This document shows positions 4,740 through 14,331 of a stretch of 64,000 nt of DNA, one piece after another. The first letter of the stretch is position 1. The number at the start of each line of letters is the position of its first letter. The DNA is from Polaribacter sp. WD7 (GTDB lineage Bacteria; Bacteroidota; Bacteroidia; Flavobacteriales; Flavobacteriaceae), in contig NZ_QPEJ01000017.1 of the NCBI RefSeq assembly GCF_003335085.1, positions 434,001-498,000 of the forward strand. Reading direction: 5' to 3'. The notes beneath the pieces were generated by a model. The model was not told the origin of the DNA. It saw nothing but the letters and a program-made list of their open reading frames with translations, and searched no databases. Both the position numbers and the translations under genes were made by a program.

Positions 4740-7376
4740 TTATTCTAAATTCTTTAAACTATTTTTAATCGTTTCTATTTTAGCTAAAGTATCGCTTTCT
4801 TTTTTACGTTCTAATTCAATAACTTTTTCTGGAGCATTTGAAACGAAACGTTCATTAGATAATTTCTTTTGAATACCAAATAAGAAACCTTCTGCCCTTT
4901 TTAATTCTGCATTTAATTTCTTTGTCTCTGCCTCTACATCAATATTTGCTGTAGAAATAGGTACAAAGTATTCGTTAGATTTTACTCTAAAAGATGCACC
5001 ATCTACTTTTTCAGAAACATAATTTACTAAAGATGTATTTGTTAACTTTTGAATAATTGTGTCAAAGTTTTTAGATTGATTTTCATTATCTACTACAAAC
5101 AACTCAATAGCTTCTTTAAAAGGAATATTTTTTTCTTTTCTGATAGTTCTTATTCCTGAGACTACTCCTGTTGCAAAATCAAAGTCAGTAATAATTTGTG
5201 TGTCAAATGTTTTTTGTTCTGGGTATTTAGCAATAATTAAAGCTTTATCTGGAGTTCTTTCTGCTATAAATTGCCAAATTTCTTCTGTTAAAAATGGCAT
5301 AAATGGATGCAATACCTTTAAGTTATTCTCTAAAACTTTAATAATAGCGTCAAAGGTAATCTTGTCTATAGGTTGCTGATATGCAGGTTTTACAATTTCT
5401 AATAACCAAGATGAAAAATCATCCATAATTAGTTTGTAAATAGACATTAAAGCGTCTGATAATCTGTATTTAGAGAAATGATCTTCAATTTCTGCTAAAG
5501 CTTTTTGAAATTTTGCTTCGTACCAAGCCAAACCAATTTTTGCGGTTTCTGGCTGTGATAAACTAGCGTCTACTTCCCAACCTTTTATCAAACGGAAAGC
5601 ATTCCAAATTTTATTAGCAAACCCTTTTCCTTGTTGGCATAAATCTTCATCAAATAAAATATCATTTCCTGCTGGCGCACTCAATAATAACCCAACACGT
5701 ACACCATCTGCACCAAACTCTTCTATCAATTTTAATGCATCTGGCGAATTCCCTAAAGACTTGGACATTTTTCGACGTTGTTTATCACGTACTAAACCTG
5801 TTAAATACACATTTTTAAAAGGTTTTTCATCTTTATACTCATATCCAGCTATTATCATTCTAGCTACCCAAAAGAATAAAATATCTGGTCCCGTAACTAA
5901 ATCGTTAGTAGGGTAATAATAGTTGATTTCTTTGTTTTCGGGATTTCTGATTCCGTCAAAAACAGACATTGGCCATAACCAAGAAGAAAACCATGTATCT
6001 AATGCATCTTCATCTTGACGTAAATCTTTAGTTGTTAGTTGTTGGTTATTGGTTTTTTGTATTGCTAAAGCTAAAGCTTCATCAATATTTTCAGCTACAA
6101 CAAAATCTTCTTTTCCATCACCAAAATAATAAGCAGGAATTTGTTGTCCCCACCATAATTGACGAGAGATATTCCAATCTCGAATATTCTCCATCCAATG
6201 ACGATAGGTGTTTTCAAACTTTTTTGGCACCAAATTAATATCGGTATCATCACCCAAAACAGCAGCAATAGCTGGCTTTACTAAATCTGTCATTTTTAAA
6301 AACCATTGATCTGACAACCTTGGTTCTATAACTGCTTTGGTTCTTTCTGAAGTACCAACTTTATTGGTATGCACTTCCTTTTTAATCAAAATTCCTTTTT
6401 CTTCTAATTCTTTAGCAACTGCTTTTCTAGCAACAAACCTGTCTTTGCCTTGATAATGCAATCCAAAAGAATTTAAAGAAGCATCTTCATTAAAAATATC
6501 AATAACTTCTAAATTGTGCTTATCTCCTAAAACTTTATCATTTTCGTCATGAGCAGGTGTTACTTTCAAACAACCTGTACCAAACTCTACATCTACGTAT
6601 TCATCTTCAATAATTGGTATCACTCTATTACATAAAGGTACAATAGCCTTTTTACCTTTTAAGTGTGTAAAACGCTCGTCATTAGGGTTAATACAAATTG
6701 CAGTATCTCCAAAAATGGTTTCTGGTCTTGTTGTTGCTATCGTTAATGTATCGTTAGAACCCTCAATTTTATATTGTAAGTAATATAAATTACCTTGTTT
6801 TTCTTCATAAATTACCTCTTCATCAGAAAGGGTTGTTTTTGCTTCAGGATCCCAGTTTACCATTCTGTATCCTCTATAAATTAAACCTTTGTTATACAAA
6901 TCAACAAAAACTTTAATTACAGATTCAGACATTTCTGGATCCATGGTAAAAGCGGTTCTCTCCCAATCGCAAGAAGCGCCTAGTTTTTTTAATTGCTCTA
7001 GAATAATTCCCCCATATTCATTTTTCCAATCAAACGCATGTTGTAAAAACTCTTCTCTAGTTAAATCGCTTTTACGAATTCCTTGTTCTTTTAATTTAGC
7101 CACCACTTTTGCTTCAGTAGCAATTGATGCATGATCTGTACCAGGAACCCAACATGCATTTTTACCTAATAATCGTGCACGACGAATTAGCACATCTTGA
7201 ATGGTATTATTCAACATATGCCCCATATGTAAAACTCCAGTTACGTTTGGAGGAGGAATTACAATAGTGTAAGGTTCTCTTTCATCTGGTGTAGAATGAA
7301 AGTAATTGTGTTGAATCCAGTACTCATACCATTTACCTTCTACTTTTGTTGCATCATATTTTGATGGAATAGCCAT
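4740..7376 (-). CDS. valS: Valine--tRNA ligase
   Basis: Class I aminoacyl-tRNA synthetase that charges tRNA-Val in the cytoplasm. With the start chosen here it has 878 residues, normal for the family. The HIGH-type motif is HMGH (50-53) and the KMSKS motif lies near 535; the C-terminal coiled-coil arm (about 810-878, rich in Lys and Glu) is present. I chose ATG 7376 ([14 protein letters not shown]) over the longer frame that begins at 7409, because a -7 promoter element (7407-7414) covers the longer start. The stretch around residues 440-450 ([10 protein letters not shown]) is encoded by DNA that resembles a dispersed repeat seen upstream of ribH. The gene stands alone and ends at a bidirectional terminator. 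Confidence 0.97.
6028..6057. repeat. TTAGTTGTT/GTTGTTGG repeat inside valS
   Basis: A 30-bp stretch of GTT/GTTGG units within the valS coding sequence. Its first 18 bases match the arm at 27400-27417 upstream of ribH at 17 of 18 positions. It is read in frame as a polar Asn/Gln/Thr segment in a surface region of ValS. Confidence 0.4.
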
Positions 7377-7406
7377 ACTTTGGAATAATTTTTGAAATAT
7401 AGTTGG

Positions 7407-7414
7407 CAAAAATA
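7407..7414 (-). promoter_or_regulatory. -7 promoter element of valS
   Basis: TATTTTTG on the minus strand, an exact TAnnTTTG match, 31 bp before ATG 7376. It helps decide the valS start. Confidence 0.6.
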
Positions 7415-7499
7415 CAATTATCTAATTTCAGGAGAAAATTAGCTATTGATTTTTTAGAATAAAATATTAGTTTTAATTTTACTAACTAAATCTATTTTT

Positions 7500-10618: not shown

Positions 10619-11629
10619 TTGAACATTCAAGAGAATAAATCTTTAAAACACTACAATACTTTTGGTATAAATGTAGTTGCAAAACAATTTGTAGCTGTAG
10701 ATTCGGTTTATAAATTACAACAGCTTTTAAAGCTAAATAAAGATGTTTTTTTAATTTCTGGAGGAAGCAATATGCTACTTACTAAAGATATTGATAAATT
10801 AGTCGTACACATTAATATAAAAGGAATTTCTATAGACAAAGAAGATGATAATTTTGTTTACTTAACTGTAAATGCTGGTGAAAACTGGAACGATTTTGTA
10901 CTCTGGTGTGTATCACAAAATTATGGTGGACTTGAAAACCTGTCTTTAATCCCTGGAAACGTTGGTACTTGCCCCATACAAAATATAGGTGCTTATGGTG
11001 TAGAAGTTAAAGACACGATTACTAAAGTTGAAGCTATTGATATTAACTCAGGTAAATTTGTAGAATTTTCTAATACCGAGTGTAATTTTGGATACAGAAA
11101 TTCTATTTTTAAAAACAAGGTAAAAAGTAAATATGTAATTACTGCAGTCTGTTTTCGGTTGACAAAAAACAATCATAAATTAAATACCTCTTATGGCGCT
11201 ATTGAAAAAGAACTTAACTCTAAAGGAATTTTTAATGCTACTTTAAAAAATATTTCTGACGCAGTAATTGCTATTAGAAAATCTAAGCTTCCAGACCCAA
11301 ACAAAATTGGTAATAGTGGTAGTTTTTTTAAAAATCCTGTTATTTCTACACATACATTTTTAGAACTTCAAAAAAAATATCCGTCAATACCTAGTTATAC
11401 TGTTTCTAGAACTGAAATTAAGATACCTGCTGGATGGTTAATAGAACAAGCTGGTTTTAAAGGAAAACGTTTTGGAGATTGTGGTGTTCATAACAAACAA
11501 GCTTTAGTATTAGTAAATTATGGGAATGCTACTGGTGAACAAATTTATCAACTAGCACAAAAAATTCAAGATACCATTTTAGCAAAATTCGGAATTTCAC
11601 TTGAAATTGAGGTTAATGTAATTGTATAG
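10619..11629 (+). CDS. murB: UDP-N-acetylenolpyruvoylglucosamine reductase
   Basis: MurB uses NADPH and FAD to reduce UDP-GlcNAc-enolpyruvate to UDP-MurNAc in peptidoglycan synthesis, in the cytoplasm. 336 residues, the size of the type I (E. coli-like) enzyme. FAD-binding segments SGGSNML and SLIPGNVGTCPIQNIGAYG are present. The catalytic serine lies in GNSGSFFKNP (about 235) and the C-terminal glutamate in LEIEVNVI. The start is TTG: the frame has a stop at 10601, no ATG before residue 57, and the family N-terminus (ENKSLKHYNTFG) begins at once after the TTG. The non-ATG start may keep translation modest. Confidence 0.95.
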   Translation: MNIQENKSLKHYNTFGINVVAKQFVAVDSVYKLQQLLKLNKDVFLISGGSNMLLTKDIDKLVVHINIKGISIDKEDDNFVYLTVNAGENWNDFVLWCVSQNYGGLENLSLIPGNVGTCPIQNIGAYGVEVKDTITKVEAIDINSGKFVEFSNTECNFGYRNSIFKNKVKSKYVITAVCFRLTKNNHKLNTSYGAIEKELNSKGIFNATLKNISDAVIAIRKSKLPDPNKIGNSGSFFKNPVISTHTFLELQKKYPSIPSYTVSRTEIKIPAGWLIEQAGFKGKRFGDCGVHNKQALVLVNYGNATGEQIYQLAQKIQDTILAKFGISLEIEVNVIV

Positions 11630-11635
11630 AAAATC

Positions 11636-12180
11636 TCGGGTTTTAAATTTTTATTAGCTCTAAACATTACCGATTATATATTACGACAAACTTTTTCTAG
11701 TAATTTCAACTATTTATTAATAACTTTTTTCCGTCTATTTTAGCCAGTGTAAAAATTATACACTAATTCTCAGGTAATACACTTATATGTTTAAAAAAAA
11801 TTCTGATTTTTATTTATTATCTACAAAATTCCTGGGTGATTCAATTCTATAAATATTTTGTTTTATTTACATCAATATCTACACCTAATATACTTTACAT
11901 AAATGCAAAGCGTTTTTTATATACTTTTTCGTATAAACTCTAAAGACTTATTTATTGCAGTTCGATAAATCCAAGTAGATAATTTTGAATTGCTTTCAAA
12001 ATTTTTAATCAATTTAAATACCTATAAAAAAACTTCTTGTGGTGCATCTTCTAAATCTTCTTTATTAGGAATAAAAGAAATGCAGGTTCTGAAAATTTTT
12101 TGTTGATAATTATACAGAAGTAAATCAAATACATTTTGATTCCCTACTTTTAACTCTTTCAAAAATTTTCATCGTTCAAG
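11636..12180 (-). pseudogene. Decayed ECF-type RNA polymerase sigma factor gene
   Basis: Reading the minus strand in one frame from 12180 to about 11797 gives recognisable sigma region 2: FLKELKVGNQNVFDLL, YNYQQKIFRTCISFIPNKED, LEDAPQEVF, then SNSKLSTWIYRTAINKSLEF, interrupted by TGA (12169-12171), TAG (12022-12024) and TAA (11917-11919). Past the linker, NHPGIL (about 11825-11840) is in the same frame. After a frameshift, LPEN and IIFTLAKIDGKK (about 11715-11780) match region 4, and a further shift gives FRANKNLK (11641-11664), the usual end of region 4. The span of about 180 codons equals a whole ECF sigma factor, so the gene decayed in place rather than being truncated. It converges on murB. 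No anti-sigma gene is visible next to it. Confidence 0.85.
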
Positions 12181-12207
12181 TGTTGGGTTTGTAAAAAAAT
12201 AAATATA

Positions 12208-12238
12208 CGAAAAACCAGATAAAATTAACTTATCTGGT
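12208..12238 (-). terminator. Possible orphan terminator on the minus strand
   Basis: A 9-bp stem (12214-12222 with 12230-12238) followed on the minus strand by TTTTT. No intact gene ends here; it may be left from a lost gene upstream of the sigma-factor pseudogene. From here to 12430 I see no coding signal on either strand. Confidence 0.35.
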
Positions 12239-12430
12239 CTCTCTAATTGATATAGGGACTTAAATATCTTACCCTTAACTAAAATTGTATGTAATAAACT
12301 TTGCTATAGTGTACTATTTGTTTTGTTTATTATACTTTTGAAATGAACATCAAGTTGTTAGACACACTATTTTAAAAAAGTCACATCGTTAATATTTAGT
12401 CAACTTTTTTAAGTTAACACCAAGAATATG

Positions 12431-12438
12431 TATCTTTG
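12431..12438 (+). promoter_or_regulatory. -7 promoter element of the small membrane protein operon
   Basis: TATCTTTG, an exact TAnnTTTG match, 17 bp before ATG 12455. It lies on the longer frame's first codons (ATG 12428) and therefore argues for the shorter start. Confidence 0.6.
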
Positions 12439-12454
12439 TAATATAAATTATTTT

Positions 12455-12658
12455 ATGAAATTATTATTTTTAACTTTAGGATTGTTAGCTCTTGGTGTTG
12501 CTGGTATTGCTATAAAAATTTGGGCTAAAAAAGATGGTAAATTTGCAGGAACTTGCGCTAGTCAAAACCCAATGCTAAATAAAGATGGAGAAGCTTGTGG
12601 TTTCTGTGGAAAAACTCCAGATCAGTTTGATACTTGCGCTGAGCCTCAGCATCAATAA
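12455..12658 (+). CDS. Small membrane-anchored cysteine-rich protein
   Basis: 67 residues from ATG 12455: one N-terminal transmembrane helix (about 2-22), then a short soluble tail with four cysteines (C33, then a CGFC pair near 47-50, and C60). The layout of one helix plus a small Cys-rich domain recalls NqrM, the maturation factor of Na+-translocating NADH:quinone reductase, but the cysteine spacing does not let me claim it. It opens a plus-strand run with the glycosyltransferase, sigma factor and transporter genes. Function not recognised. Confidence 0.7.
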   Translation: MKLLFLTLGLLALGVAGIAIKIWAKKDGKFAGTCASQNPMLNKDGEACGFCGKTPDQFDTCAEPQHQ

Positions 12659-12673
12659 ATCTTATTGCTGTAG

Positions 12674-13777
12674 ATGATATTATCTGTACTTTTCTACGTA
12701 TTTGTAGCATTTACAGTCATACAAACTATATATTACCTTGCTTTTTTTTCTTTTCTTTTAGAACAAAAGAAAAAGAAAAAACACAAAAAACTCCCTCCTG
12801 TTTCTATCATTATATGTGCTAAAAATGAAGCTAAAAACTTAAAGAAATTTTTACCTACTATAATTAACCAACATTATGATGATTATGAAATAGTACTTAT
12901 TAATGATGCTTCATCTGACAAAACTGCTTCAGTTATGGAAGAGTTTAAAGCAAAACATGATACTATTAAGATTATTGATGTAGAAAATATTGAGGCTTTT
13001 TGGGGAAATAAAAAATATGCCCTTACTTTGGGTATAAAAGCGTCAAAATACAATCATTTACTTTTTACTGATGCAGATTGTAAACCTGTTTCTAAAAATT
13101 GGATTTCAGAAATGGTTCAACATTTTTCAAAAGAAAAAACCATTATTTTGGGTTATGGTAAGTATAAAAGAGAAAAATCTTTAGTAAATTTACTTGTGCG
13201 TTACGAAACCTTGTTAACTGCTATTCAATATTTTAGTTATGCCAAATTAGGTTCGCCATACATGGCTGTTGGAAGAAATTTAGCTTATCATAAAGACGAA
13301 TTTTTTAACGTTAAAGGCTTTATCAATCATATACATATAAAATCTGGTGATGATGATTTGTTTATACAAGATGCAGCTTTAAAAGATAATACTTGTATTT
13401 GTACATCAGCAAAAAGTTTCACAGAATCTATAGCTCCATCATCTTTTACGGCTTGGTTTCGTCAAAAAAGAAGGCATATTTCTACTGCAAATCATTACAA
13501 ATTTAAACACCAATTCTTTTTAGGTTTATTTTATATTTCAAAAATATGCTTTTACGCATTAGCCATAACTTTGTTCTTTTTTGTTTCTTGGAAATTATTA
13601 TTGTTACCTTTATTAGCTTATTTTACAATAAATTATGTATTAATATCAGTAGCTGCAAAAAAACTAAAAGAAAAACAAATAGTGTATTTTCTACCTTTTT
13701 TAGAAATAGGGTTAATGGTATTTCAATTTTCAATATTTATCACTAATTTGTGGTCAAAACCCAAGCATTGGAATTAG
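12674..13777 (+). CDS. Membrane glycosyltransferase, family 2
   Basis: 367 residues. An N-terminal transmembrane helix (about 3-25), a GT-A domain of family 2 (PPVSIIICAKNEAKN near 39, INDASSDKT, TDADCKP as the DxD region, GDDDLF, and FRQKRRHIS matching the family QxxRW position), and two or three C-terminal helices (about 285-365). It would move a sugar from a nucleotide sugar to a lipid or polysaccharide acceptor at the inner membrane. The acceptor is unknown. The gene overlaps the next one by 28 bp, so the two are translationally linked. Confidence 0.88.
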   Translation: MILSVLFYVFVAFTVIQTIYYLAFFSFLLEQKKKKKHKKLPPVSIIICAKNEAKNLKKFLPTIINQHYDDYEIVLINDASSDKTASVMEEFKAKHDTIKIIDVENIEAFWGNKKYALTLGIKASKYNHLLFTDADCKPVSKNWISEMVQHFSKEKTIILGYGKYKREKSLVNLLVRYETLLTAIQYFSYAKLGSPYMAVGRNLAYHKDEFFNVKGFINHIHIKSGDDDLFIQDAALKDNTCICTSAKSFTESIAPSSFTAWFRQKRRHISTANHYKFKHQFFLGLFYISKICFYALAITLFFFVSWKLLLLPLLAYFTINYVLISVAAKKLKEKQIVYFLPFLEIGLMVFQFSIFITNLWSKPKHWN

Positions 13778-14331
13778 ACAAAAAGCAACTTGATATAACC
13801 ATAGTAAAAGCTAAGAGCGGAAACCAATCTGCATTTAGTTTATTGCTAGATACATTTTGGTTAGACGTCTACAATTATCAATTAAAACGAACTCAGAATG
13901 AAAATGATGCAGAAGACATTACTATTAGAACATTTTCTAAGGCTTTTGATAAAATTGCATTTTATGATGATAAATATGTATTTAAGACATGGTTAATTAC
14001 CATTTCAAAAAACTTGCATATTGATTTATTAAGAAAGAAAAACATTTCTATTAGTGCTGATACTTCTGAAGAACAAGAAAAAAAAGCCTACTTGGTTGCT
14101 GACGAAAATCCAACACCAGAAGATAGAATTATTACAGAGCAAAATTTAGCCAAATTATTAAGAGATATAAAGCAATTAAAGCCTAAATACCAAGCAGTAA
14201 TTCAATTACGTTATTTTCAAGAATTGAGTTACAAAGAGATTTCAGAAAAGATGAATGAACCAATGAATAACGTAAAGGTAACATTATTACGAGCTAAGAA
14301 ATTGTTAGCAGCAATAATTAAGAAATCTTAA
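13750..14331 (+). CDS. ECF-type RNA polymerase sigma factor
   Basis: 193 residues starting at GTG 13750 inside the end of the glycosyltransferase gene; TTG 13768 is an alternative. Region 2 covers about 25-95 (AEDITIRTFSKAFDKI and FKTWLITISKNLHIDLLR), and region 4 covers about 130-190 (LKPKYQAVIQLRYFQELSYKEIS, then VKVTLLRAKKLL). It directs RNA polymerase to its own promoter class. No anti-sigma factor lies beside it; the neighbours are a glycosyltransferase and an Nramp-like transporter, so control may be by expression level alone. It is intact, unlike the decayed sigma gene 1.6 kb upstream. Confidence 0.93.
   Translation: MVKTQALELDKKQLDITIVKAKSGNQSAFSLLLDTFWLDVYNYQLKRTQNENDAEDITIRTFSKAFDKIAFYDDKYVFKTWLITISKNLHIDLLRKKNISISADTSEEQEKKAYLVADENPTPEDRIITEQNLAKLLRDIKQLKPKYQAVIQLRYFQELSYKEISEKMNEPMNNVKVTLLRAKKLLAAIIKKS

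Follow-up and report, generated by a model that had tools for sequence, protein, structure and literature searches.

In CnrYXH-type systems, an ECF sigma factor occurs together with a short membrane anti-sigma factor and a periplasmic CnrX-like sensor. Relatives of Polaribacter sp. WD7 (G000 in our genome set) have, at a single locus, a row of genes that fits in order and sizes: a sigma gene, then a gene for a protein of ≈105 aa that has a single hydrophobic stretch, then one for a protein of ≈160 aa resembling the Spy/CpxP/Metal_resist group. By contrast with CnrYXH-type systems, the Spy-like protein of the relatives scores below the Pfam cut-offs, and the genes downstream encode EF-hand, CotH, YHYH, MORN, and SCO1 proteins (SCO1 being a copper-related family), with no metal pump. 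In G000 itself, the sigma gene at this locus is dead. This situation resembles the general notion of a transcription regulator that has become a unitary pseudogene and left its targets orphaned, in that the G000 sigma was a single-copy regulator that is dead at its ancestral locus and has one predicted target promoter left. It goes beyond that notion in that relatives, with their repeated losses and differing stages of decay, expose the fate of the targets.

A dead ECF sigma-factor gene between murB and a small membrane protein gene

The window is the whole stretch of 64,000 nucleotides that was analyzed (G000:C9:434001-498000). Its gap at 11630-12442 holds no ORFs of its own of 60 aa or more, and the minus strand of this gap reads as an ECF sigma factor. 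We aligned the region to a 192-codon profile made from intact orthologues (102 distinct sequences), using our own frameshift-aware script with ad hoc stop and frameshift penalties. The resulting relic occupies 11641-12179 on the minus strand (539 bp), with murB (10619-11629, plus strand) as its convergent neighbor and a gene for a small membrane protein (12443-12658, plus strand), which is conserved in relatives, as its divergent neighbor. The alignment covers profile columns 4-181 of 192, with consensus-identical codons at 108 of the 171 aligned, and scores 413.6, compared to a mean of 29.8 and a maximum of 40.1 for 100 shuffled sequences (best of both strands). In a scan of the window as 302 tile-strands, scores above 43 appeared only in tiles containing the relic or an intact ECF gene; apart from the relic-bearing tiles, the highest score was that of the intact ECF gene at 13750 (145), followed by 42.9. 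By eye, the relic starts with a TTG at 12179-12177, as do many relatives, and its final alignable codon corresponds to profile column 181 of 192 and ends at 11641.

The readable N-terminal piece matches Pfam Sigma70_r2 (PF04542) at 3e-12 (46.6 bits; cut-off 24). The frameshift-aware alignment also covers the columns of sigma-70 region 4, ending in MFRANKNLK, and the isolated region 4 piece gave no match in the Pfam search. The relic thus belongs by its Pfam region 2 to the ECF (group 4) sigma-70 factors (Sigma70_r2 / Sigma70_r4_2) and is nearly full length; in an intact orthologue, Pfam recognizes both regions. A sequence-only reading of this gap had proposed a decayed sigma gene, citing the minus-strand peptides KLSTWIYRTAINKSLEF, NHPGI, FTLAKIDGKK, and FRANKNLK, and had suggested a frameshift-aware search and a comparison of the same locus in close relatives. 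All of these peptides are present, and the strong sigma match in the frameshift-aware search and the Sigma70_r2 match bear out the proposal.

Unlike working ECF sigma-70 factors, the relic contains seven in-frame stops (12024-12022, 11897-11895, 11812-11810, 11765-11763, 11719-11717, 11716-11714, and 11676-11674) and at least six frameshifts, cannot make the sigma protein, and has no partner that we could find. The frameshifts lie near 12165, 11922, 11849, 11823, 11800, 11729, and 11683; six come from the profile alignment, and the seventh (near 12165), a loss of 1 base in a T run just after the TTG, was read by eye. The three stops and at least two frameshifts listed in the sequence-only reading were therefore real lesions but an undercount of the seven stops and six frameshifts aligned here. 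We conclude that the minus strand carries a dead, heavily decayed ECF sigma gene of nearly whole length.

Relatives retain the intact gene and its neighbors at the same locus

The comparison with relatives showed that they carry an intact sigma gene at the murB-lipA locus. The conserved frame of this locus consists of AAT-murB on one side and of the small membrane protein gene, a glycosyltransferase gene, a second ECF sigma gene (ECF2), Nramp, and lipA on the other. Between them, on the opposite strand, the run after murB reads SCO1, MORN, YHYH, CotH, EF-hand, Spy-like, ≈105-aa, sigma, and aquaporin or MscS, with downstream gene sets and order varying between relatives. In G000, ECF2 is intact at 13750-14331 (plus strand), in agreement with an earlier remark that an intact ECF sigma gene lies 1.6 kb away. 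We considered ECF2 as a replacement for the dead sigma and rejected this idea, as ECF2 is found in all 76 loci of our tree, whether or not they have the sigma that died in G000. Two side observations concern other genomes: a glycosyltransferase homologue in G078 (C2:40310-41272) has 8 internal stops and is likely a pseudogene, and at locus L181 (G157, 6413-7418) murB matches fall in two frames, from a frameshift or an assembly error.

At E ≤ 1e-30, a threshold at which sigma relics more decayed than that of G000 would drop out, the family profile matched 44 of 166 genomes assigned to the same genus, and the named loci closest to the first profile member are mostly from Polaribacter. The matches in G041, G102, and G138 reach only ≈1e-31 and are probably other ECF factors. 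Also among the 44, G129 has a 95-aa open fragment, the G140 gene is cut by a contig end, and the G000 entry is heavily decayed. In G045, the third codon of the sigma gene (L142) is TAA, and the gene for a secreted protein discussed below (L288) changes frame near its start, possibly reflecting later starts or early decay.

The ≈105-aa and Spy-like genes follow the full-length sigma gene in 38 of 38 loci of a first set; in a second set, which overlaps the first in part, the ≈105-aa gene comes next in 78 of 79 loci and the Spy-like gene is present in 76 of 79. The ≈105-aa gene was found in 15/15 genomes with the sigma and in 0/16 without it, G000 included (two of these 16 are <81% complete). No Pfam family matches the ≈105-aa protein above cut-off; position and size suggest that it is a probable anti-sigma factor. 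The same considerations lead us to infer that the Spy-like protein is a periplasmic sensor; its sub-threshold Pfam matches are to LTXXQ (24.1 against a cut-off of 24.3 bits, L012) and Metal_resist (22.0 against 29.2, L013). In related Flavobacteriaceae, the sigma heads a putative cell-envelope module. A search of the G000 genome found no anti-sigma gene, and CotH gave no match there; elsewhere, G000 has one YHYH protein (877-aa frame) and three SCO1-like matches, one of them barely above cut-off.

A predicted promoter motif of the sigma factor

Upstream of sigma genes outside Polaribacter, the pair GCAAGTTTT...GCATCTAA was first noticed by eye, and a subsequent scan located the motif before ≈105-aa, YHYH, EF-hand, sigma, and CotH genes. 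The search fixed both boxes by pattern and left the spacing free, and although spacings of 14-18 were permitted, 282 of the 283 sites, tallied by gene hit, showed a spacing of 16. The motif lies within 250 bp of the hit for 95/110 anti-sigma, 88/169 YHYH, 65/112 EF-hand, and 8/43 CotH hits. It is nearly absent within this distance of Spy-like (1/102), MORN (0/71), and SCO (0/71) hits, and these genes sit behind others in runs. Only 25 of 120 sigma-gene hits have the motif upstream, which implies that autoregulation of the sigma gene is not general. Further sites precede VTC-DUF4956-DUF2490 and additional YHYH genes. At places other than the sigma locus, the CotH, VTC, DUF4956, and DUF2490 genes of G125 and G090 (L298 and L299) have EF-hand or YHYH genes close by, and several genes in these groups are preceded by the same motif.

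The whole-genome pattern CAAGTT-N14-CATCTAA was present in 21 of 21 genomes with the sigma (1-7 sites each) and in 2 of 16 without it (G000 and G013, one site each). A reversed control pattern occurred 0-3 times per genome in both groups, ≈1 per genome overall. The G013 site was taken as chance, with no gene just downstream. From this distribution, CAAG-N16-CATCTA is the predicted -35/-10 promoter of the sigma factor.

The sigma-ECF motif SM6 of Flavobacterium psychrophilum (PMC9723704) is likewise a predicted class of ECF promoter in a flavobacterium, and its targets include an anti-sigma/ECF pair. It differs from the motif described here, which has CATCTAA and stands before a CotH/YHYH/EF-hand module, in having CGT at -10 and in serving T9SS genes among others. 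Our literature search, judged from the result listings, found no description of the sigma module or its motif. A sister motif, GCAAGTTTT-N-CGTCTAAA, recurs at sites in G044, G045, G080, G090, and G092; it may serve as promoter for a related ECF factor, which might recognize the G000 site described next as well.

One predicted target promoter survives in G000

The single motif site of G000 is an exact match on another contig (G000:C8:169014-169040), 24 nt before the start of an intact 203-aa ORF, whose ≈610-bp frame bears no lesion. The product is a ≈200-aa secreted protein with no Pfam family above cut-off, and the gene lies near those for a 60-aa protein and an ABC-F protein. Allowing two mismatches in a longer pattern added only two G000 sites (C5:40747 and C10:442996), each with two mismatches, which we took as chance or coding matches. 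It had been suggested that promoters served by the dead factor may still exist in the genome, and this holds for this one predicted promoter.

A chance match of the motif before the secreted-protein gene would need little explanation as such: G000 contains 1 match to the reversed pattern as well, so that a chance site somewhere in a genome is unsurprising. However, the site lies 24 nt before a start codon, and orthologues in eight genomes with the sigma share the exact motif at a similar distance, which makes coincidence very improbable. An altered motif precedes the orthologue in G113, G106, and G081.

In a clade of 20 genomes, the secreted-protein gene is in place in 11 of 12 with the sigma (not in G092) and in 1 of 8 without it, namely G000; weaker relatives of the gene occur elsewhere in most of the 20. 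Changes at codon positions 1, 2, and 3 number 31/19/30 in G000 and 29/21/26 in G044, which retains an intact sigma gene, and thus are fast in both lineages; beyond the open frame, nothing here points to selection. We tentatively consider that the orphan promoter may still work through takeover by another sigma factor, such that the secreted-protein gene would have outlived its regulator and the remainder of the regulon would have disappeared. In support of takeover, the ≈610-bp frame carries no lesion against ≈14 in the relic of similar length, and G000 alone of the eight sigma-less genomes in the clade keeps the gene in place. Retention could also be luck.

YHYH genes had a different fate. 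With one mismatch allowed, the motif was found at 20 of the 32 loci that have both the sigma and a YHYH gene (YHYH match above 60 bits; 38 loci considered) and at 0 of the 11 sigma-less loci that keep YHYH. Since the genomes share ancestry, Fisher p-values for comparisons of this kind exaggerate independence.

Neutral decay and large deletions at the G000 locus

Using G090 as the third sequence, we counted lineage-specific changes at codon positions 1/2/3 in G000 and G044; alternative third sequences give similar counts. The relic has 35/21/37 changes and the intact G044 gene has 0/1/21. For the intact neighbors, the G000 and G044 branches show 43/25/61 and 20/14/57 (glycosyltransferase), 23/6/64 and 22/6/67 (Nramp), and 12/9/38 and 8/5/20 (ECF2), so that third-position changes are similar on both branches in two of the three longer intact neighbors, ECF2 differing at 38 versus 20. 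The near-even relic counts, set against 0/1/21 and the comparable third-position change in the neighbors, imply that the relic has been neutral for most of its branch. It has been unconstrained for most of the time since the split from the intact-gene lineage; its death was not recent, contrary to what the readability of the remains had first suggested.

Large deletions have also shaped the locus. Only 11 bp (11630-11640) separate the relic from the murB stop codon, and synteny with relatives marks these as a deletion junction between the sigma C-terminus and murB. At this position, relatives with the sigma hold varying sets of anti-sigma, Spy-like, EF-hand, CotH, YHYH, MORN, and SCO1 genes, and all genes from the anti-sigma through SCO1 are absent at the G000 locus.

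On the other side of the relic, by-eye comparison with the regions upstream of intact genes points to what is left of the sigma gene's -7 promoter box at 12200-12207, minus strand (TATATTTA; many relatives have TATGTTTA). The label "-7 box" refers to the TAnnTTTG consensus (PMC9723704). Beyond it, at 12210-12237 on the minus strand, a terminator-like hairpin with stem CCAGATAA/TTATCTGG and a T run was seen by eye. An identical or almost identical stem lies after the aquaporin gene in 8 of the 13 loci shown, and loci with MscS in place of aquaporin usually have a different stem (both by eye); the hairpin is probably a remnant of a lost aquaporin gene. An aquaporin deletion scar at 12239-12310 (minus strand) was traced by aligning the spacer to that of the sister genome G083 (L177), with the 3' part matched by eye. 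Here, 12443-12293 aligns to the G083 spacer between the small gene and aquaporin with a score of 120 (shuffle maximum, 60), and the alignment, with mismatches, continues for ≈15 nt into the start of aquaporin. In the scar, weak traces of the first aquaporin codons (≈12293-12310) adjoin traces of the 3' untranslated region (≈12239-12275) and the hairpin, which indicates that the body of the gene was deleted.

Accordingly, the earlier view that point mutations and small indels killed the gene is right in that such lesions are present but is incomplete, because large deletions removed the probable anti-sigma gene, the remaining operon, and the aquaporin body. The events at the locus comprise deletion of the module, hollowing-out of the aquaporin gene next door, and neutral decay of the sigma gene. 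Death of the sigma gene seems more likely to have preceded or coincided with loss of the anti-sigma than to have followed it, since prior loss of the anti-sigma would have left the sigma unchecked.

The stretch might instead have been kept for another function, as a small RNA or regulatory region. It did survive the deletion of its neighbors, and a terminator-like hairpin remains upstream of it. Yet its near-even codon-position changes are those of unconstrained sequence, and in G083 this sequence is gone, from the sigma promoter up to murB. We regard retained function as very improbable.

The relic as a unitary pseudogene

Intact orthologues occupy the same locus in relatives, no functional copy was found elsewhere in the G000 assembly (17 contigs, 99.95% complete), and coding constraint has been lost. 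We therefore consider it very probable that the relic is a unitary ECF sigma pseudogene, with the module deleted, the aquaporin gene hollowed out, the sigma gene decaying neutrally, and one target promoter surviving with an intact gene. G000 has 11 other ECF-like matches, among which a working orthologue might be sought, the relic then being a stray duplicate or transferred fragment. However, the region 2 piece is 23-35% identical to the other G000 ECF factors and 59-68% to the five best orthologues in relatives, the relic occupies the ancestral position, flanked by murB and the small membrane protein gene, and the family profile at 1e-30 finds the relic alone in G000; a stray copy is thus most improbable. 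Errors of sequencing or assembly in a gene that is really alive are an extremely unlikely source of the lesions even in an assembly of 17 contigs, because ≈14 lesions fall within 540 bp between neighbors with open frames, changes at codon positions 1 and 2 number 35 and 21 where the intact lineage has 0 and 1, and the anti-sigma gene and operon are also missing.

Probable repeated loss of the sigma gene among relatives

In a tree of flanking proteins (76 loci), G083 is sister to G000 (support 0.999), and G044 and G005 form the next pair. G083 has no sigma and keeps aquaporin, G005 has no sigma and keeps YHYH-MORN-SCO and aquaporin, and G044 is intact. This pattern fits death of the sigma in the ancestor of G000 and G083 followed by different deletions; separate deaths are an alternative. 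Among 43 loci without a full-length sigma, 17 lack every queried gene in the interval from murB to the small gene; SCO-MORN-YHYH is retained in 7 and, together with aquaporin, in 3 more; aquaporin alone is left in 6 and MscS alone in 2; a sigma relic is present in 2 (G000 and G165); and 6 are cut.

In G165 (L183, 4844-5129 and following), the first ≈83 sigma codons, with lesions, remain at the same locus and are joined by a deletion to an apparent SCO1 end. The gap between murB and the small membrane gene in G009 (L223) may hold a ≈20-residue relic of the same sigma (score 51), and L215 and L218 gave relic-scan scores of 47. A scan score of 107 at L226 (G104) was rejected as a further relic, since it comes from a different, open ECF gene.

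We read the absences of the sigma as losses because intact copies occur at one shared locus in distant groups. Dollo parsimony on the 76 tips (34 with the sigma) gives 19 losses. Fitch parsimony on the same midpoint-rooted tree gives 15 changes with an absent root state; gains are the less probable reading.

Implications for the regulon

The relic itself is an ordinary unitary pseudogene in an unusually good context, and its interest lies in the motif, the repeated losses, and the orphan promoter. Intact, half-lost, and wholly lost versions of the regulator in these relatives amount to a natural experiment on what becomes of target promoters after a sigma factor dies. The targets differ in their fate: YHYH operons in genomes without the sigma lack the motif, whereas one other target has kept its predicted promoter in G000. 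The comparison also provides a testable promoter and gene list for a putative envelope regulon of Flavobacteriaceae that would include CotH, VTC, DUF4956, EF-hand, YHYH, and SCO1 genes.
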